Of a stretch of DNA of 29,201 nt, positions 2,869 to 26,500 are shown piece after piece. The notes under the pieces were generated by a model. It did no database searches and was not told the origin of the DNA. It saw only the letters and a list, made by a program, of their open reading frames with translations. The position numbers and the translations under genes are program-made. Source of the DNA: a virus; the IMG/VR virus record IMGVR_UViG_3300027881_000056, positions 1 through 29,201 of that record. The stretch is one strand, 5' to 3'. Within the stretch, counting starts at the first letter, position 1; each line of letters opens with the position of its first letter.

Positions 2869-4833
2869 TTAGCGCACGGGGCAAACACCATTTTCACAAT
2901 CTTCGTCGACAAGGTCAAAGCCTGTATCGTCGTCGATATTTACAGGCTGCAGCCTGTTAGTATACTCTTCGAAGACGTCCTTGGTCACGGCCTGTTGTGG
3001 CAGATAGGCATAACCTACGTCTTCGGCTGTCATGGTGGGGTCGATGCGAGGCATGAACGACACGCCCACATACGTGTCCCAGTTCTTATCAATCCAATCG
3101 ACCATAGCGGGGATTTCCTTCTGGTCGTAGCTCACGGTGATCGAGCAATTGTGATCGACATAGTTGCTCATGAGCATCTTATACCGGTTAAGCTGCTTTA
3201 CTGCGCTCTCAGTGTTGACCTCCATACCATTGACCACGTCGAAGTTTGCCGAGTCATTCTGGACCGGGAAACGCACGATCAGGGTGTCGGTATCGGTCGG
3301 GTTCGGGCTCTCGAATATGTGGTAGCCAGACGCTTCGAGCTTAGGAATCAAGGGGTCGTGTGAGCCTATCTTGATATGGTTCCACATGTACCTACCCATA
3401 GACTTATGGGCACCCTCTCCATCGCTGTCCATGATCTTGGAGAGGGTTCCGCTGGGCTTGATAGTGGTGGTTAACTTGGGGCGCGGCAGGCCAAGCTCGT
3501 CAGCCATGCCGTACGTCCCAAGTATGGCATTGTTCCGCAGCACACCATAATCGTATGGTGTCAGATCGGGACGCCCTGTTACACCCGTAAGACCGACGCC
3601 GCAGAGCCGCAGGAACTCATTGTTCTCATGCCACGCTGACTGTAATACACCATCGCGAAGATCGACGCAAGTCTGTCGGTAGTTGGCGCGACCCATAATC
3701 TGCATGGCCCGGTGTAGACCAGATGGATTACCACGGAACGCACTCAGACAAATCTCTACCAGATTACAGAACGACTTATTGGCGAGCAGGATCTCGGCAC
3801 ACGGGTTCACACCAGAGAACCAAGGGGCACGGATCATGGCAGCGACAGCATTAATGAAGCCGGGCTCGCTTCCGCCAGACGCGACCATCATGTCGAAGAT
3901 TTCTCTTAGTCCCGCTTTACTTGGCTTCGAGTAGAATAGGATGGAATTGTTGGACTGCTGTCGGTGTTGGTTGTCGTGGAGCCAGAAGTCTTTCTTGAAG
4001 GTGGCGAAGTGCTCCCAGCCGATTTCTCCGTGAGGATATAAGATGATCTCCGACGAGCGACGCGAGCTAAGGATCGTTCCAAGCCAGTTGATGATGTCAT
4101 GGATGTTGTGCCTGTCTAGGAGTTGTCCCGCCTTGCGAGATAGGATCTCACAGATCGCACGAAATGCAACGGCAATCGCAGTATCCCCAGAGCTAATCCA
4201 ACCGTAACCAGATAAACGAAGCCCAGCAGGACGTAACTCAGAAAAGTCGAGTACAACACGATCAGCAGGATACTTACCAGCAAGGAGCTTACCAACGGAC
4301 TTTGCCCACGCTTCCGCGCTATCGCCAATCTTAATAGTCCAAGTCTTGGTGTCAGCATTCCATATCTCAGTGTTGAAGTCCTCACCACCCTTACTGGTGC
4401 GGGAAGAGTGAATGATCTCACATTCCATCGGCTTGGCAAACCCATTGAGTGTGCCGGCGACAGGAAGACCTCCAACCCCACAGCCCTGCAGGAGTAGCCA
4501 TAGGAAGTCGACCATGTCGTGGACGGTCTCGGCACGGGCGAACGAACAGTTGAACTGTGACGCCTCGCGACGGCGGGCGACATCAGTCCCACCAAGCCAC
4601 AGCGTTCGCCCTGACACAGACGTCTTGCGCTGATACATGAGACCACGAAGCTCGTTCAACTCAGCCTCGTTGTGAACACCAAGCTTCCTCCCCCGCGCCC
4701 GCTCCCACAGCCACCGCTGATGATCGATGACACGGTCGATGGTCTGTTCCCAGGTCTCGAAGACACCGTTAGTCTCGTCGATAGGGCGGTTGTATGTACG
4801 GCGCGTGATGATATTAGCTCTGGTCGAAACCAT
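2869..4833 (-). CDS. nrdJ: Adenosylcobalamin-dependent (class II) ribonucleoside-triphosphate reductase
   Basis: Reduces ribonucleoside triphosphates to deoxy forms using B12 radical chemistry, with no oxygen requirement and no second subunit. It matches the monomeric class of Lactobacillus leichmannii. FNCSF carries Cys96 (partner of C119 there), NPCAEILL carries Cys345 and Glu347 (thiyl-radical Cys and catalytic Glu), SFCNL carries Cys356 (partner of C419), and the tail CENGVC has Cys646/Cys651 spaced like the C731/C736 shuttle pair. TIKPSGT and GEGAH phosphate-binding segments are also present. At 654 aa it is about 85 residues shorter than the 739-aa reference, so allosteric parts may be reduced. 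ATG at 4833 is preceded by GGAGGG. In a phage it would supply dNTPs for replication in a B12-containing host. Confidence 0.95.
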   Translation of the reverse strand: MVSTRANIITRRTYNRPIDETNGVFETWEQTIDRVIDHQRWLWERARGRKLGVHNEAELNELRGLMYQRKTSVSGRTLWLGGTDVARRREASQFNCSFARAETVHDMVDFLWLLLQGCGVGGLPVAGTLNGFAKPMECEIIHSSRTSKGGEDFNTEIWNADTKTWTIKIGDSAEAWAKSVGKLLAGKYPADRVVLDFSELRPAGLRLSGYGWISSGDTAIAVAFRAICEILSRKAGQLLDRHNIHDIINWLGTILSSRRSSEIILYPHGEIGWEHFATFKKDFWLHDNQHRQQSNNSILFYSKPSKAGLREIFDMMVASGGSEPGFINAVAAMIRAPWFSGVNPCAEILLANKSFCNLVEICLSAFRGNPSGLHRAMQIMGRANYRQTCVDLRDGVLQSAWHENNEFLRLCGVGLTGVTGRPDLTPYDYGVLRNNAILGTYGMADELGLPRPKLTTTIKPSGTLSKIMDSDGEGAHKSMGRYMWNHIKIGSHDPLIPKLEASGYHIFESPNPTDTDTLIVRFPVQNDSANFDVVNGMEVNTESAVKQLNRYKMLMSNYVDHNCSITVSYDQKEIPAMVDWIDKNWDTYVGVSFMPRIDPTMTAEDVGYAYLPQQAVTKDVFEEYTNRLQPVNIDDDTGFDLVDEDCENGVCPVR

Positions 4834-19429: not shown

Positions 19430-20512
19430 TTAGTTTTCGTATCCGCTCGTTACGTTCTTAAGTTCGAAGCGGAACATTTCGCCGATGGTATCGTCGTATT
19501 CTGCCTTCGCAGTGAAGCTCGACTGCAGCCTATTAGGACCGCCGATGGGAGTCGACCAAGACAGATATTTCATTGAGGGGATATGGATACGCATCCCGTA
19601 GTAGCCCAGGAAAGCATCGGCATCGAGAGAGGCGATGTTGCCAAGCGTCAGGGCACTGTTGACGTTCTGGATAGTGATACGCATACGCCTCGCCTCGTAG
19701 GCGATGAAGGCGTCGTATTCGGCATGGCTGGCAAACGACAGTGTGCCACTGATGTTCATGCGGCGGAAGTCATTCTGCTGGAACTCGGCGTAGTTCTTCG
19801 TACCGTCGAGCAGGACCACACCCTCATGCGGAGTCTCCAACGACAGGGTAAGCTGCTCGAAGTTGGTGTTGGCCGCGAGATTGGCTGACGTTGTGTCGGT
19901 CGAGACCTCGATAGATGCCATATCCCAAACGAAGGGACGACCACCAGAAGACACCAATGAGTTAATGGCCGCGATGCGCTCGATCCGACGAACCGTACGA
20001 GACATTGCCGTGGCAGTCGCACCAACAAGCTGTCCAGCCTGAATATCGAATTCCAGACCTGTCAGGATAGAGCCATCGAACATAAACGCCGATCCGAGAT
20101 CCCGATATACCATGATGCCATAGGGCTCAAGGAAAGAAGTCGGAGCGAAGGCGGTCTGCCGGGGAACAAAGACATGAGAGAAATAGGGCTTACCAGCTTC
20201 CGTGGTCGAGTTAGCCCCAGTCGAAGCGGCGTCAGTCACCAGCGTACCGACACCAGCACCCACGGCAGCGTTGAGGAACGCGCCGATGGCATTAGGGTTC
20301 GGCTCCATAACGATGTCACCACCACCGAAATCAATACCCTTATGGGACGGGGGAGCATCACGCCGGCCTGTAATCGAACCCTCTTCAAGCTCCTCCAGCG
20401 TATGTTCCATACTCTCGGATACAAAGTTCGTCCAAAGGTTCGCAGAGTTGACTTGGTTGCCAATCGACGTGACCTTTATGAGAGCAACCTGACCGCCTGT
20501 GCCGGATGCCAT
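19430..20512 (-). CDS. Major tail tube protein
   Basis: A 360-aa protein with the features of siphophage tail tube proteins (Phage_tube_2-like). The N-terminal ESMEHTLEELEEGSITGRRD is followed by KGIDFGGGDIVMEPNPNAIG, where a conserved G-x-I/V-x-M-x-P-N pattern introduces the beta barrel. Later LGNIASLDADAFLGYYGMRI leads to a C-terminal tube-fold strand set. It stacks as hexameric rings to form the tail tube. It has a strong ribosome site (TAAGGAG) before ATG 20512. It lies between tail terminator and chaperone genes, as expected. At 360 aa it may carry an extra surface domain compared with minimal tube proteins. Confidence 0.88.
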   Translation of the reverse strand: MASGTGGQVALIKVTSIGNQVNSANLWTNFVSESMEHTLEELEEGSITGRRDAPPSHKGIDFGGGDIVMEPNPNAIGAFLNAAVGAGVGTLVTDAASTGANSTTEAGKPYFSHVFVPRQTAFAPTSFLEPYGIMVYRDLGSAFMFDGSILTGLEFDIQAGQLVGATATAMSRTVRRIERIAAINSLVSSGGRPFVWDMASIEVSTDTTSANLAANTNFEQLTLSLETPHEGVVLLDGTKNYAEFQQNDFRRMNISGTLSFASHAEYDAFIAYEARRMRITIQNVNSALTLGNIASLDADAFLGYYGMRIHIPSMKYLSWSTPIGGPNRLQSSFTAKAEYDDTIGEMFRFELKNVTSGYEN

Positions 20513-20951: not shown

Positions 20952-21475
20952 CGCCTTACCCTTTGTACGATCTTACGAACCCAAGCTTCAGCCTCGTTCT
21001 CTATAATAGCAAGAGCCTCTGACTCAGTAGAGAATACGCGACGAGCAGGGACTACGCTTGGCTTTGCGCCACGGATTGTAATGCTATTGCCCTGAATATT
21101 CCTTAATGCGGTGGGGTTTTTAAGAGGAATAGTAACCGTCTTACCTGTGAAGCCGGGCGTTACAAACCCCCTCTCGTGCATGGTGATGTCCCAGCCGGTG
21201 GCTGTATGCCCTATAATAAGCCTGGATCCGATCATCTGGAAGCTGATATTCTTCCTCTCTGTGATCAGGGCCTTGCGGCGCCCCGTCCTGGCGCGTGTCC
21301 ACTTCGACAGCTTATCGTAGGCCCCGTTGTCCTGAGTGGTGATACGCTTCCTAGCATCATCACGTAGGGAACGACCGATCCTATTGAACAAGGGATTGGT
21401 TTTACTCAGCGCACGCTTCAGCTTCCTCATCCCCGCCTTTGTTTCAGGGACGCCAGTGATGACTATTGTGGTCAT
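20948..21475 (-). CDS. Neck / tail completion protein (HK97 gp10-like)
   Basis: A 175-aa basic protein. Features typical of HK97 gp10/virion-morphogenesis proteins are the N-terminal MRKLKRALSKTNPLFNRIGR helix, a DDARKRITTQ segment, the central HERGF (residues about 95-99) and a C-terminal helix ending in KIVQRVRR. These proteins form part of the neck where head and tail join. Both ends are linked by ATGA overlaps to the connector upstream and the tail terminator downstream, the usual order. The exact family is inferred. Confidence 0.78.
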   Translation of the reverse strand: MTTIVITGVPETKAGMRKLKRALSKTNPLFNRIGRSLRDDARKRITTQDNGAYDKLSKWTRARTGRRKALITERKNISFQMIGSRLIIGHTATGWDITMHERGFVTPGFTGKTVTIPLKNPTALRNIQGNSITIRGAKPSVVPARRVFSTESEALAIIENEAEAWVRKIVQRVRR

Positions 21476-21981
21476 ACCGGACAGCCATCCGTTCCCAGCG
21501 GACCATCACCAGAGCGATCATCCCTCTCCTGCGTGACATAGTCTCGGTCAACCGCTTGATCCAGCGGATCGAGAACGGGAGAAAAGACAGGGTGATAGCT
21601 GCCGGTGCTGGACCAAGCCTCGCTGTCCCCCGATGTAACCTGTGTGGTTCCACTGGCGACCAGAAGCATCTCACCCGTAGTCAACTTTGTAAGGTATCCC
21701 TCGGCCCTATTGTACCGTCCCTGCATAAAGTCTGGGATTGCACCAAGCTTTTCAAACATCATATTGCTGATAGCGAGATCGGCTGCGATCATGGTAATTA
21801 AAGGCTCGGTCGTCACAGGGACGACATATCGCGCAGCCAAGAACGCATTCATAAATCCCTCTGCATCAGAGATGAATATGGAGGCCACGTCATCGCTGGT
21901 TACATCAAGGGAGCCCGCACCCACCATAGAACCGATGGGCTTGTACCGGGCGAACACGTCCGTGATAGTTGCATAAGCCAT
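21472..21981 (-). CDS. Head-tail connector (DUF1320 / Mu gp36-like)
   Basis: A 169-aa mostly helical protein. YATITDVFARYKPI at the start, ADLAISNMMFEKLGAIPDFM and RYNRAEGYLTKLTTGEMLL in the middle match the pattern of DUF1320 adaptor proteins. These bind under the portal as a dodecameric ring and complete the head. It begins by TAATG overlap with the stop of the 992-aa enzyme gene, so it is translated from the transcript that starts at the promoter near 25049. The gp10-like neck gene follows. Confidence 0.82.
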   Translation of the reverse strand: MAYATITDVFARYKPIGSMVGAGSLDVTSDDVASIFISDAEGFMNAFLAARYVVPVTTEPLITMIAADLAISNMMFEKLGAIPDFMQGRYNRAEGYLTKLTTGEMLLVASGTTQVTSGDSEAWSSTGSYHPVFSPVLDPLDQAVDRDYVTQERDDRSGDGPLGTDGCPV

Positions 21982-24959
21982 TAGTAATACTTGCTCCCTC
22001 TGCGCTTGAACTCGGGGTCAAGGATCTGCTTGAGCACACGAGCGATTTCGTCAGTGCTGGTGAATAGACCCTCAAGCTCGCAATTACGATCATCAAGGAC
22101 TAAGCCCAACTTAATCGGTGTGCCCACGCCAAGGAGCTTACGCGCCTCTCCGAGATACTGGATAGCCTGAAATGTCCCAGTCCCGAATGTCGCCATAGCT
22201 CTCCAATTATCATTGTAGTATGTCTCAGCCTCTTTCGCCAGAGTAAGAGCGTTCCCCATGTCGTTCTGCTGTTGACACCAGCGCATCCTATGGATGATGT
22301 CGCGGAACCACAGGTACTTACCGAGTTTACGGTCAGGGTTTGTTTCGTGGTCCCACACTAGGAAAGGGAAGTTACGATTGAACCGCGACCGCCGAACATC
22401 CTCGTTGACGTAGCCGGTATGTCCTAGATCGACATCGGAGATCATGAAGCATGTACCGGGGCCACCAGACGGTAGCTCGAAGTGCTCATGGATGTGACCG
22501 ACAGCACGGTAGCCACGATCAGTCCTGAACAAGCGAGCAGGGCGATCAATCTGGATCGGCGCCCCACGCGGCTGTACCGTGAAGTGATGCTGTGGGATTA
22601 GGTAAGCGTCGAGCGCATTATTGCGAAGGTAAGATCCGATCTTACCAGACAGATATTCATCGGTATCCATCCACAATACCCAATCAAACCAATCGGATAG
22701 ATCCTTAATGCTGTCGTTCCTTGCCATGCCAAACGAATAACCTGGGGTCCATTCTTCATTCTCTTTGAACGCGGACTCGATAGCAGGGACATCAATAATA
22801 CGATATTGCATGTGAGGATGATCGTTAAAGAACTGCTCGATCAACTGTCGCGTCCTGTCCGTGCTCGGACCCATAGCAAACTGGACAAACTGTACCTGTC
22901 GGTCGAGACTGTGCAGCATATGCAGGATAGTGTCTTCGTCATTCATGCAGATCGCAGCGACGGCACAGGTCTGCCGAGAGTGAGCAGACTTAGCTTTCTT
23001 CAATGCATTCAATGGCTTAATAGGCTTATGGTCGGCTATGAACGTATAGAACAAGTTGCCTACAGGACGTCCATCAGACTCGTCGGTCCCTGCGGTAAGA
23101 GACATCATTTCTATACCGGGTTTCTTTCCGAACATCTCCCGCGCTGCGGCCTTATCCAGATGCCATATATGATTGCGCCACTCCCACTCTTCGGGCTTAA
23201 CGGCGAATGTCATAGGCTCCCATGCACCTATAGGGGTGGTGATAACAACCCTACCACCCTCTTTTACGAGACCCTCAACACCGGTTGCGACTGTCCACGG
23301 CTCTTTACAATGCTCCAATACCTCGACACAGATGACAAAATCTGCAGGGCCGTCAAGTTTGTTTATCACATATGCTGGTTCATGAGCCACAAATGCCTTT
23401 AGGTTCACTGTGTTGAAGTCAACCTCCATTTGATTGACCATGTCGACATTCTGCTGAACCTGATCAAACGCAAGGAAGTTACGATCAGGGAAGTCTACGG
23501 CCAGGGGACCAGAGATATGGCCCTCGCCGCAACCGTACTCAACAATGGTGTCGCCGGGATTAGTAGACTTCTCAACAGCTTCCTTGATCATGGAGTACCG
23601 CTGAGAGTGACGACCATAGTCGACGCCGTAATTGATATCGGGCTTCTTGAACTCATAGAACCTCTTGTAGTAGGACGCCAAGCTCTCGAACTTGGGATCT
23701 TCTTCGTCGAGAATAAACGGATAGAATTCCTCGATCTGACGTGCGAGTTCAAGTGACGGAGGATCAAGTTGCTCCTGATCAGTCAGGAAGGCGTAAGCAG
23801 GGATGACGTCTCCGTCCTGCACCAGTGACCACGCGCGAGAGAATACCTTGGGCTCTGCCGGCTTCGCCAGCTTGAGGACTTGCTTGCACGCGGTGTCCCA
23901 TGTGAGATCGGTGCGCTCAAACATTTCGCTCGTGGCGCTATCGATAACAAGAGACATTCCCATTGCTTCTTTGAAGAACCTAGCGAATAGAGCACACCAT
24001 TCTGGAGATCCCTTTTCCGGTTCGATAATCGGACCCTGGACGTGACCACCAGACAACCATTCCTCGAAATATATGCCGGCATAATCAAGGGTCTCAGGGA
24101 GAGCACCAATCCTAGTAGTAAGGAACGGAGTACCAACGCTGATGCACTCACGCGCCAAGATGCACGACGTCTCCTCGAATTGTGTCGGGTAGATGTATGC
24201 CGCGCTGTCCGCGAGAAGCTGTCGCATCTCCTGTTGTGTCAAAGACCCCACGACCTCAACATTCGGAAGCTCCGCAATGCGAGCGAAGATCCACTGATAG
24301 AATTCCTTCATATCCTCTGGGAAGTGATCGTACATCGCTACCTTGAGATTGAATTCAGGAAGATTCTCCATGACGCCCCCCTCCTTAATCAAATTCTCAA
24401 GGCCGCGCTCGGGACGGGACGCATATACGAGTTGGGTCTCTGATCGAGGAGCAGGGATTGTCTCGATCTCTACGATACCATTGGTCACCACCTTGATAAA
24501 CTTGCGAGGATATCCTGTGACCTTATGGATCTGATCAGCGTGGAACTTTGATACCGCCCACAGTTCATCGACAGTCCAGTTTATCTGGTCCATTGCTGTC
24601 TGCATACCACGATGGGTGGCAAGGTCATGACACCAAAGAACTTTCTTCTTAGCGGCGCAGGGGAGGGCCACAAGGCGAGGATCGCGAGAAGCTATCAGGA
24701 GGTCACATTGTGTATTCGTTATGAAATTCTGATAGTTGTTTATATGGACATATCGAATGCCATCTTCGCTCTCTTCGCCATTATGGATGAAGTCTGGCTC
24801 ACCCTCTGCCGGCAGAGTGCAGAATACTGTGACTAAATGCCCCTTGGCCTTGAGCTTCTTTGCGAGCATGAGGACGGCAGTTTCGGAACCGCCAAGAGAT
24901 TTATGGGCCAACGTATCTGGACCAAAAGGCATTCCGCCTGCGGCGAGAACGATTTCCAT
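21981..24959 (-). CDS. Three-domain GT4 glycosyltransferase - SAM methyltransferase - GT2 glycosyltransferase
   Basis: A 992-aa fusion. Residues 1-365 form a GT-B glycosyltransferase: GGSE (23-26) in the N-terminal donor loop region, and FEETSCILARE (261-271), the E-x7-E nucleotide-sugar motif of GT4 enzymes, then VGTPFLTTRIGALPE. Residues 440-640 form a class I SAM methyltransferase: motif I VEYGCGEGH (473-481), acidic Asp499 in LAFDQ, and VEVLEH (545-550). Residues 664-985 form a GT-A, GT2-type transferase: CMNDEDTI, GPSTDRT (697-703) and the metal-binding DTD in WMDTDEYL (763-770). One polypeptide could build and methylate a glycan. It sits between capsid and connector genes with its own promoter and leader. 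Virion glycosylation is one reading; modification of a host surface glycan is another. ATG 24959 has GGGG in a small hairpin loop as ribosome site. Confidence 0.92.
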   Translation of the reverse strand: MEIVLAAGGMPFGPDTLAHKSLGGSETAVLMLAKKLKAKGHLVTVFCTLPAEGEPDFIHNGEESEDGIRYVHINNYQNFITNTQCDLLIASRDPRLVALPCAAKKKVLWCHDLATHRGMQTAMDQINWTVDELWAVSKFHADQIHKVTGYPRKFIKVVTNGIVEIETIPAPRSETQLVYASRPERGLENLIKEGGVMENLPEFNLKVAMYDHFPEDMKEFYQWIFARIAELPNVEVVGSLTQQEMRQLLADSAAYIYPTQFEETSCILARECISVGTPFLTTRIGALPETLDYAGIYFEEWLSGGHVQGPIIEPEKGSPEWCALFARFFKEAMGMSLVIDSATSEMFERTDLTWDTACKQVLKLAKPAEPKVFSRAWSLVQDGDVIPAYAFLTDQEQLDPPSLELARQIEEFYPFILDEEDPKFESLASYYKRFYEFKKPDINYGVDYGRHSQRYSMIKEAVEKSTNPGDTIVEYGCGEGHISGPLAVDFPDRNFLAFDQVQQNVDMVNQMEVDFNTVNLKAFVAHEPAYVINKLDGPADFVICVEVLEHCKEPWTVATGVEGLVKEGGRVVITTPIGAWEPMTFAVKPEEWEWRNHIWHLDKAAAREMFGKKPGIEMMSLTAGTDESDGRPVGNLFYTFIADHKPIKPLNALKKAKSAHSRQTCAVAAICMNDEDTILHMLHSLDRQVQFVQFAMGPSTDRTRQLIEQFFNDHPHMQYRIIDVPAIESAFKENEEWTPGYSFGMARNDSIKDLSDWFDWVLWMDTDEYLSGKIGSYLRNNALDAYLIPQHHFTVQPRGAPIQIDRPARLFRTDRGYRAVGHIHEHFELPSGGPGTCFMISDVDLGHTGYVNEDVRRSRFNRNFPFLVWDHETNPDRKLGKYLWFRDIIHRMRWCQQQNDMGNALTLAKEAETYYNDNWRAMATFGTGTFQAIQYLGEARKLLGVGTPIKLGLVLDDRNCELEGLFTSTDEIARVLKQILDPEFKRRGSKYY

Positions 24960-24960
24960 T

Positions 24961-24981
24961 GTGTACCCCTACACTTAAGTG
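24961..24981 (-). promoter_or_regulatory. Overlapping palindromes at the ribosome binding site of the glycosyltransferase fusion
   Basis: Two short inverted repeats overlap here. CACTTAAGTG (24972-24981) is a perfect 10-base palindrome. GTGTA-GGGG-TACAC (24974-24961 on the minus strand) puts the Shine-Dalgarno GGGG in the loop, two bases before the ATG. They could act as a protein operator or as an RNA switch controlling translation; this is inference. Confidence 0.45.
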
Positions 24982-24984
24982 GTT

Positions 24985-25021
24985 GGTGGCGGGACGCCGG
25001 GGCACGAAACATCCCGCCACC
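24985..25021 (-). promoter_or_regulatory. Strong leader hairpin upstream of the glycosyltransferase fusion
   Basis: A perfect 10-bp GC-rich stem (GGTGGCGGGA with TCCCGCCACC) and a 17-base loop lie between the promoter and the coding start. No T-run follows, so it is not a typical terminator. It would stabilise the 5' end of the mRNA or serve as a regulatory RNA element. Confidence 0.6.
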
Positions 25022-25043: not shown

Positions 25044-25072
25044 ATTATACCGTAAGGAAAGGGGCGCTGCAA
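25044..25072 (-). promoter_or_regulatory. Sigma70-type promoter (TTGCAG - 17 - TATAAT)
   Basis: On the minus strand TTGCAG (25072-25067) and a perfect TATAAT (25049-25044) are spaced by 17 bases, close to the bacterial consensus. Transcription would start near 25037, leaving a leader of about 78 bases before ATG 24959. The -35 box lies inside the loop and 3' arm of the capsid terminator hairpin. It would drive the glycosyltransferase fusion and probably the neck and tail genes. Confidence 0.72.
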
Positions 25073-25085
25073 TCCACAGCGCCCC
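25054..25085 (-). terminator. Rho-independent terminator after the major capsid gene
   Basis: A perfect 9-bp stem, GGGGCGCTG/CAGCGCCCC (25085-25077 with 25069-25061), has a 7-base loop and is followed by TTTCCTT. It begins 29 bases after the capsid stop. Ending the highly expressed capsid transcript here would make capsid mRNA more abundant than downstream mRNA. Confidence 0.85.
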
Positions 25086-25114: not shown

Positions 25115-26077
25115 CTAAATGACCGACTGCACTCGGATGGCGAGATCGGTCGAAACGACCTTCTCAGCTTGGTAGTATCCAACTTCCATTTCGAAGATCT
25201 TCTTTTTCACATCGAAAGGATGACGCTGAACAGCGAAGGGAACGCCAAGCATGGGAGAAGTCCAGCGGAAGGCGTTGAGCCATGTGTCGGTCATGCGACC
25301 TTGCAGGAGGTTGATCTTGGCGAGCCAGATATGACTTCCCCAAGCATCGGCGAGAGACCACGAACCGTTCTCGGTCTCAGTCTCAGCGAAAGTATTGATC
25401 TGTGCAGCGGGAACAAGGATGCGGTCCACGCCGATCAGAGTAGCCAGTTGTGTTTCAGTAACGAGACCACCACGATCACCGAACAGAACATCACGAAGCT
25501 GGTCGTTACGACGGAGCACCGTCATAATCTGTTCCGGCACGATAAGCGTATTGGGCTTGAGACCAGTCGCCTGACGAAAATTCTCGACCTCTGAAGTCAA
25601 GTCGTCGAGTGGGCGAGAGCCCGTGGTATTCGACCAAGCGGTATTGATCGAAGTAACGGTCTGGACGTTGGTCGTATTGACGGCGAGATCAGCGATGCGG
25701 ATTTCGTAATCAACCATCAGGCGATCCGTGAGATTGATCGCTGAGGTTTCAGCCCAAGCCAGAACCTCGTCGTGGTTTACTTCGTCCTCAACCGGCCAAT
25801 CCGTAGCGAGTGCATAGTTGGGCGCGAAGTAGGTGTCGGACGACACGGTGAAGTGGACCTTCTTCGCCTCAGTCCCAGGGGCACGAGCCGAAAGGTTCAC
25901 TTCGTGACGACGGAAGTGACCGTGGTTATATTTGTAGAAGATATCGCTCTGCTTGGATACCGGAGTCACCGGAAGCAGTAGATCCGCGATAAAGCCCTCG
26001 GGACGACGCCCGACGACCACATTAGACAAGGGCACATCGACGTGTAGGTCGCGGCCTGTGGATGGAGTGCCGGGCAT
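25115..26077 (-). CDS. Major capsid protein
   Basis: A 320-aa protein located after the protease/scaffold and decoration genes, where the major capsid protein belongs, with a strong ribosome site (TAAGGAGGA). The sequence resembles phage capsid proteins that enter the fold without a long N-terminal delta domain: NVVVGRRPEGFIADLLLPVTPV near the start, then a His/Asp-rich N-arm region (YKYNHGHFRRHEVNL), a helical spine (NLTDRLMVDYEIRIADLAVN) and IVPEQIMTVLRRNDQLRDVLFG before the C-terminal axial region. The HK97 fold is inferred from family resemblance and context. Scaffold function is supplied by the fused upstream gene. Followed by a terminator. Confidence 0.88.
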   Translation of the reverse strand: MPGTPSTGRDLHVDVPLSNVVVGRRPEGFIADLLLPVTPVSKQSDIFYKYNHGHFRRHEVNLSARAPGTEAKKVHFTVSSDTYFAPNYALATDWPVEDEVNHDEVLAWAETSAINLTDRLMVDYEIRIADLAVNTTNVQTVTSINTAWSNTTGSRPLDDLTSEVENFRQATGLKPNTLIVPEQIMTVLRRNDQLRDVLFGDRGGLVTETQLATLIGVDRILVPAAQINTFAETETENGSWSLADAWGSHIWLAKINLLQGRMTDTWLNAFRWTSPMLGVPFAVQRHPFDVKKKIFEMEVGYYQAEKVVSTDLAIRVQSVI

Positions 26078-26089
26078 CAGATGTCCTCC

Positions 26090-26500
26090 TTATGCACTGT
26101 TGACAGTGACGTTATGCGGCGCCAGTTCAATCGTAAATACAGAACCGGACGCTGCCGTGGTCATTGCTCGACCCATCACCGTTTTGGTCTGCAGATACTG
26201 ACCAGCAGAACCCGCATTGATGGTGCCGAACGCGAGAGTTTCGCCGAAGCCCGACGCGGCACTAACGATCCAATCGCCAGCAGTCACAGACCCACCAGCA
26301 TCTACACGAACCCTGCCCGAAAGAGCTACCTGGGCATGCTCGCTGGCTTCCGGCTTGTTCATGAGAACACCCATCCCGCCACGAGCGAGAGCGTGTCCTA
26401 CGACACCGACACCAACATGGTCGACGAAGCGATGCTGCAGGGCAGACATGTCTCCAGAAGCCACAAAGGTTTCGGAGACGACTCGATTTGTGTCAGCCAT
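26090..26500 (-). CDS. Capsid decoration protein (DUF2190-like)
   Basis: A 136-aa beta-rich protein directly before the major capsid gene. It follows the DUF2190 pattern: an N-terminal NRVVSETFVASGDM, a Gly-rich GVVGHALARGGMGVLMN, GRVRVDAGGSVTAGDWIVSA, and a C-terminal GQYLQTKTVMGRAMTTA block. DUF2190-type proteins act as capsid cement, binding at three-fold or quasi-three-fold sites and stabilising the expanded shell. Gene order protease/scaffold, decoration, capsid is common. Confidence 0.82.
   Translation of the reverse strand: MADTNRVVSETFVASGDMSALQHRFVDHVGVGVVGHALARGGMGVLMNKPEASEHAQVALSGRVRVDAGGSVTAGDWIVSAASGFGETLAFGTINAGSAGQYLQTKTVMGRAMTTAASGSVFTIELAPHNVTVNSA

Follow-up and report, generated by a model that had tools for sequence, protein, structure and literature searches.

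The 29,201-nucleotide stretch analysed here (the window; IMG/VR record IMGVR_UViG_3300027881_000056) is a 29.2-kb viral contig whose head-tail genes lie on the minus strand. Positions 21981 through 24959 of that strand hold an uninterrupted open reading frame (ORF) that begins with ATG at 24959, ends with TAA at 21981 and encodes 992 amino acids. Three catalytic domains, all predicted to be intact, are joined in this single chain: an N-terminal GT4 glycosyltransferase, a central S-adenosylmethionine (SAM)-dependent methyltransferase and a C-terminal GT2 glycosyltransferase resembling SunS and ThuS. The chain is conserved, and its gene keeps an invariant location in the head gene block. The fusion probably works as a soluble enzyme in the cytoplasm and glycosylates one of the structural proteins from which the phage builds its virion, the virion target being suggested by the location of the gene.

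The three enzyme signatures named in the initial annotation are all present at the residues given there, namely E263-x7-E271 of GT4, SAM motif I (473-VEYGCGEGH-481) with VEVLEH (545-550), and the GT2 motifs GPSTDRT (697-703) and WMDTDEYL (763-770). The curated Pfam cut-offs were passed for GT4 (PF13439), for Methyltransf_23 (PF13489) and likewise for PF08241, while the window protein searched alone reached no Pfam GT2 model. A profile of ten relatives compared with the PDB matched residues 641-877 to the ThuS-like chain 7msk (1e-7), to SunS and to GmaR, the Listeria flagellin O-GlcNAc transferase (5e-7, residues 663-872). Because these matches agree with the structural match to SunS and ThuS described below, the GT2 domain is considered real despite the silence of Pfam. 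GmaR is a host flagellar enzyme, and the matched chain, unlike the fusion, has neither a GT4 nor a methyltransferase domain.

The structure prediction that had been proposed as a check gave a confident AlphaFold model of the whole fusion (52-sequence alignment; predicted local distance difference test score, pLDDT, 92.4; predicted template modelling score, pTM, 0.91). Residues 1-370 superimpose on retaining GT-B enzymes, with a Z-score of 30.2 and a root mean square deviation (rmsd) of 2.8 over 328 residues for MshA, and the GT4 domain reaches Z of about 30 to MshA, PimA and HepE. Since VIA-align returned GT4 matches only for the full model, the GT2 module (residues 641-992) was folded separately, with a pLDDT of 91.2. 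Its best structural neighbours are SunS (Z 22.3, 276 residues, rmsd 3.6) and ThuS (Z 21.2, 280 residues); the alignments take in the C-terminal helices (276-280 of 352 residues), and the next family follows at Z 16.8. SunS (SPbeta yolJ) and ThuS, the glycosin S-glycosyltransferases, share the GT-A fold and C-terminal helical module with residues 641-992, but are stand-alone peptide enzymes with about 16-19% identity to the module. As judged from sequence and model, the first domain classifies as CAZy GT4 (GT-B fold, E-x7-E), the second as a class I SAM-dependent methyltransferase (Rossmann motif I, curated model) and the third as a SunS/ThuS-like GT2 enzyme (GT-A fold, DxD, C-terminal helical module).

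The affinity of the GT2 module bears on two other substrates. Glycosylation of modified bases in the phage DNA is a common role of phage glycosyltransferases (PMC12619734), but the module is nearest to protein glycosyltransferases and the gene belongs to the head block instead of accompanying replication genes. DNA hypermodification was rejected as the leading interpretation, and we give it almost no weight. The similarity to SunS and ThuS, together with radical-SAM genes near the fusion in some distant relatives, would also suit another polypeptide, either a host protein or a peptide like the ribosomally synthesized and post-translationally modified one that SunS glycosylates. This is very unlikely, as no conserved small precursor-peptide gene was noticed beside the fusion and the head-gene location would be left unexplained.

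The catalytic positions of the fusion were compared in 52 aligned relatives. Residues E263, R182, D765, D767, E768, H824, E825 and H826 are invariant, E271 is glutamate in 47, the motif-I residue G480 is kept in 51 and D499 in 49; D701 of GPSTDRT is poorly kept, with aspartate in only 25 of the 52. Between the window and relative L002 the nonsynonymous distance is 0.175 at a saturated synonymous distance, indicating strong purifying selection. A chance ORF is excluded, given that the full ORF is kept in 54 non-redundant sequences and nonsynonymous change is strongly suppressed. An artefactual joining of two genes by sequencing error is likewise excluded by the recurrence of the full three-domain ORF in relatives. 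In pairwise distances the fusion tracks the major capsid protein (MCP; correlation 0.89) and the tail tube (0.91) as closely as structural genes track one another. The mean pairwise distance is 1.12 for the MCP, 1.29 for the fusion, 1.50 for the tail tube, 1.60 for the protease and 1.90 for the adaptor; the fusion thus behaves like a core gene and evolves nearly as slowly as the MCP.

Searches with the fusion as query recovered relatives of 27-75% identity, others came from a search based on the capsid, and the set comprises 54 non-redundant full three-domain ORFs including that of the window. The MCP gene lies upstream of the fusion in all 50 loci in which that side is covered, and an adaptor gene was identified in 43 of 49. 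Use of the fusion as query introduces no bias towards the MCP in the loci so retrieved. The position between major capsid and connector genes recorded in the initial annotation therefore stands, and the proposed search of related phages found the fusion beside capsid genes and not in company with DNA-modification or lysogenic-conversion genes. Some divergent members have extra genes between MCP, fusion and adaptor. Absence of the fusion was established for no member of the MCP family, because the contigs that seem to lack it end before its place; in L117 the fusion begins right at the contig end. The translational coupling to the connector that had been claimed is also borne out: the fusion stop and the adaptor start share one base in TAATG, and many relatives likewise have these genes directly adjoining or sharing a few bases. 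A phage-encoded glycosyltransferase gene within or next to the head genes, one feature of phage virion glycosylation systems, is observed here.

The same distribution bears on the modification of the host cell surface (O-antigen, capsule or flagellin), which would block superinfection or change serotype. The GT4 folds do match the lipopolysaccharide and lipid glycosyltransferases WaaG and PimA, and GmaR acts on host flagellin. Surface modification is nevertheless unlikely, because the protein is soluble, no membrane-anchored partner was noticed next to it, the gene has a fixed place in the head block of all relatives, and it is conserved like capsid genes rather than variable like conversion genes. 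No transmembrane segment was found in the fusion (maximum 19-residue hydropathy 1.18), and its neighbours are head and tail genes, so neither the membrane association nor the membrane partner genes of lysogenic conversion were seen.

Related enzymes occupy the same slot behind other capsid proteins. Locus L136, from a metagenome-assembled genome (MAG) labelled Poribacteria, encodes an SU10-type MCP (PF17236, 1.5e-52) followed by the three-domain fusion, and a profile comparison of this MCP with that of the window showed no similarity. In L140, from a MAG labelled Bacillota, an SU10-type MCP (3.4e-78) precedes a two-domain GT4-GT2 protein without the methyltransferase, after which comes an adaptor candidate with a weak profile score and, separately, a Mu gp36-like match below cut-off (E 0.0036). 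The podovirus-like record MW202524 has an MCP, a GT2-GT4 protein, further genes with a glycosyltransferase-like annotation, two methyltransferase genes and a synthase, and these split genes precede the next annotated head gene. Of all the observations, this recurrence argues most strongly for a role of the enzymes in the head.

A working order of steps can be proposed for virion glycosylation. The SunS/ThuS-like GT2 domain would attach a host-derived sugar to serine or threonine of the capsid, decoration or tail-tube protein, the retaining GT4 domain would extend it, and the methyltransferase would cap it by O-methylation. The virion would thereby be coated with a methylated glycan and have altered surface properties, such as adsorption, stability or recognition; this benefit is speculative. 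Enzymes of the SunS, ThuS and GmaR type act in initiation on polypeptides. The proposed order follows from such roles and from the methyltransferase of chlorovirus PBCV-1 A064R, which acts on the terminal sugar (PMC9614988), and the L140 version suits an optional methyl cap. None of the three candidate acceptors in the window (MCP, decoration protein, tail tube) contains cysteine, which makes a Ser/Thr linkage likelier if one of them is the acceptor. Donors are probably supplied by the host, as no sugar-nucleotidyltransferase was found in nine virus records, which may be incomplete. The virion acceptor, the order of steps, the linkage and host sugar nucleotides as donors are what we infer from these observations. 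As to the glycan building on virion proteins suggested initially, the head location and the SunS/ThuS/GmaR-like domain types favour a protein target, and the virion acceptor is a matter of deduction. In distant relatives a second GT4 gene is associated with a double-length decoration protein (5 of 6 versus 2 of 47; Fisher p 4e-5, without correction for relatedness), which hints at the decoration protein as acceptor. This additional gene, placed between MCP and fusion, is present in L044, L048, L054, L055, L060, L065 and L066, often with the double-length decoration protein.

Several points weigh against a virion acceptor. The next-ranked GT-A folds, WrtF, TarS and RmlT, act on polysaccharide or teichoic acid, so the acceptor is not fixed by the fold. 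The cultured cousins RDJL Phi 1, CRP-6 and KPP23, whose MCPs are 26-30% identical, lack the fusion. Phage synteny can persist for reasons other than function, and the support that position lends to the virion acceptor is indirect.

Phage-encoded virion glycosylation next to head genes is known (PMC4351075; PMC12619734), and the view in the initial annotation that phage glycosyltransferases lie elsewhere overlooks the mycobacteriophages. In Corndog (cluster O), gp35-gp38, an O-methyltransferase, two glycosyltransferases and a putative N-acetylglucosaminyltransferase, lie between portal and protease; their suggested target is the capsid subunit, and the peptides predicted for that subunit went undetected (PMC4351075). 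Both systems place a methyltransferase and glycosyltransferases inside the head gene block; by description, Corndog has four separate genes, whereas here a single ORF lies between MCP and adaptor. Glycans on capsid and tail-tube subunits of mycobacteriophage virions (Freeman 2023, as cited in PMC12619734) are the reported counterpart, as far as that citation goes, of the glycan on structural proteins proposed here. A viral protein with two glycosyltransferase domains and a methyltransferase is also known: A064R finishes the capsid-protein glycan of PBCV-1 (PMC9614988). It differs in its GT-GT-MT order (against GT4-MT-GT2), its 638 amino acids, a GT-A first domain and a second domain of a new GT family, and it serves an algal virus at the end of an N-glycan, so that the fusion parallels A064R by a different domain order. 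To the extent searched, three things are new: the union of GT4, MT and SunS-like GT2 in one chain in this order, the conservation of that chain throughout a lineage, and its reappearance behind capsid proteins of unrelated sequence.

As far as the literature consulted shows, phage virion glycosylation has been described chiefly in mycobacteriophages. The fusion would combine likely initiation, extension and methyl-capping in one protein, whose domains are modelled well and whose lineage-wide gene is conserved as tightly as capsid genes. If the interpretation is true, particle glycosylation would be widened to uncultured phages of many hosts, and the fusion would offer a compact soluble protein-glycosylation enzyme as a candidate for testing.

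Upstream of the fusion, the gap behind the MCP gene holds in close relatives a terminator, a TATAAT box directly behind it and then a leader (Table 1). A consensus promoter scan did not list the promoter-like element of the window. Hairpin H2 of the leader folds in 6/6 sequences tested, with leader z-scores of -2.3 to -3.6. Among 14 leaders selected for holding the loop motif, GUGCCC(C) can pair with the ribosome-binding stretch over 7-9 bp in 13, G-U pairs allowed; the mean of 7.1 bp compares with 4.2 (standard deviation 0.4) for shuffled binding-site regions, a statistic inflated by shared ancestry. Both sides of the potential pairing are changed together in L111 (GAUGCCCC/GGGGCAUC), and the binding-site sequence is repeated in an upstream hairpin loop in L031, L032, L034, L108 and L111. 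The H2-type leader occurs in the window (24959-25021, minus strand) and in L003, L031, L032, L034, L105, L108 and L111; the arrangement was not seen in L018-L020, L027, L030, L033, L035 and L106. Rfam gave no match in the window or seven relatives, and a DNA pattern scan for the leader matched mostly contigs outside the fusion family. The potential pairing suggests translational gating of the enzyme, and the leader looks like an undescribed translational switch. It is a tentative possibility that in this phage lineage and in the members with SU10-type capsids a single chain initiates, extends and methyl-caps a protein-linked glycan on the virions under the control of a dedicated leader-RNA pseudoknot at the ribosome-binding site.

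With its own terminator-promoter leader in the closest relatives, the fusion need not be expressed at MCP levels. This argues against the fusion being itself a virion component that uses its enzyme domains to bind sugars or to edit host glycans. The size of the protein and the place of its gene among the head genes would agree with such a role; the invariance of the catalytic residues and the separate, probably lower expression make it extremely improbable.

Table 1. Features of the fusion gene and its surroundings in the window
Feature	Position	Strand	Evidence or remark
GT4 - helical linker - SAM methyltransferase - GT2/SunS-like fusion	21981..24959	(-)	992 aa; domain searches, model, full-length relatives
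Domain 1, GT4, GT-B fold, residues 1-365, E263-x7-E271	23865..24959	(-)	PF13439 above cut-off; structure match MshA
Domain 2, class I SAM methyltransferase, about residues 441-645	23025..23639	(-)	PF13489 36.9 bits (cut-off 27); PDB profile matches including 3mgg
Domain 3, GT-A/GT2 with C-terminal helices, residues 641-992, SunS/ThuS-like, D765-x-D767	21984..23039	(-)	Profile and structure matches
Major capsid protein, 320 aa, possible acceptor	25115..26077	(-)	phrog_1005, 8e-49
Small head protein (decoration or scaffold-like), 136 aa, possible acceptor	26090..26500	(-)	phrog_673, 3.6e-11
Head-tail adaptor	21472..21981	(-)	phrog_195, 2e-11
Tail tube / minor tail protein, 360 aa, possible acceptor	19430..20512	(-)	phrog_290, 2e-16
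Intrinsic terminator-like hairpin after MCP gene	25061..25085	(-)	Stem kept with compensatory changes in relatives
Promoter-like TTGCAG-17-TATAAT overlapping terminator 3' arm	25044..25072	(-)	Read from the sequence; TATAAT-like box recurs in close relatives
Leader hairpin H2, apical loop GUGCCCC at 25005-24999	24985..25021	(-)	Folding of leader, loop comparison
Ribosome-binding stretch GGGGUAC	24963..24969	(-)	7-bp complementary (one G-U) to H2 loop

The small head protein is kept in nearly all relatives whose contigs cover that side. Beyond the viral contigs, a scan of genome contigs gave nothing with a close alignment, whereas relatives in MAGs came up with a deep one; the labels of these MAGs include Deltaproteobacteria, Zixibacteria and Bacillota. 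One of them, L129, is a full-length relative in an apparent provirus on a 982-kb Deltaproteobacteria contig. Searches of cultured phages by tblastn with the fusions of the window, L041, L121, L140 and L136 retrieved no phage that carries the entire fusion; what they yielded was GT4 or SunS-like pieces and the record MW202524. Four relatives of 52-56 kb hold no further ORF matching the GT4 or GT2 profiles, and the nine virus records have one Methyltransf_23 match each, inside a fusion-sized ORF.

In a Deltaproteobacterium (G010 contig 4, about 383-405 kb; L316/L317), a head-tail-lysis block of about 20 kb with the fusion has bacterial genes on either side. Neither a terminase nor an integrase was identified in this block, so that it may represent a particle locus that has been domesticated or has decayed. 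At L138:1297-4368 the GT4 domain of the fusion continues in frame into a penicillin-binding protein, beside a broken MCP; this locus was discounted because it is probably a contig chimera or the junction of an insertion. Radical-SAM genes stand beside the fusion at L062:12052-12735 and L121:7395-8225, with sequence relatives in L052, L055 and L126. Carbohydrate-binding (CBM6/CBM35-like) and lectin-like (LamG) proteins are encoded behind it in distant relatives, at L041:10917-11681 and L045:9758-10627, and a collagen-like Gly-X-Y repeat protein is encoded upstream of the head genes in one relative (L313:7179-8432). The window also encodes, on the minus strand, a gene resembling a B12-dependent (class II) ribonucleotide reductase (2869-4833) and an aspartate/ornithine carbamoyltransferase carbamoyl-phosphate domain (2019-2855; PF02729, 2.4e-22), an unusual metabolic gene for a phage.

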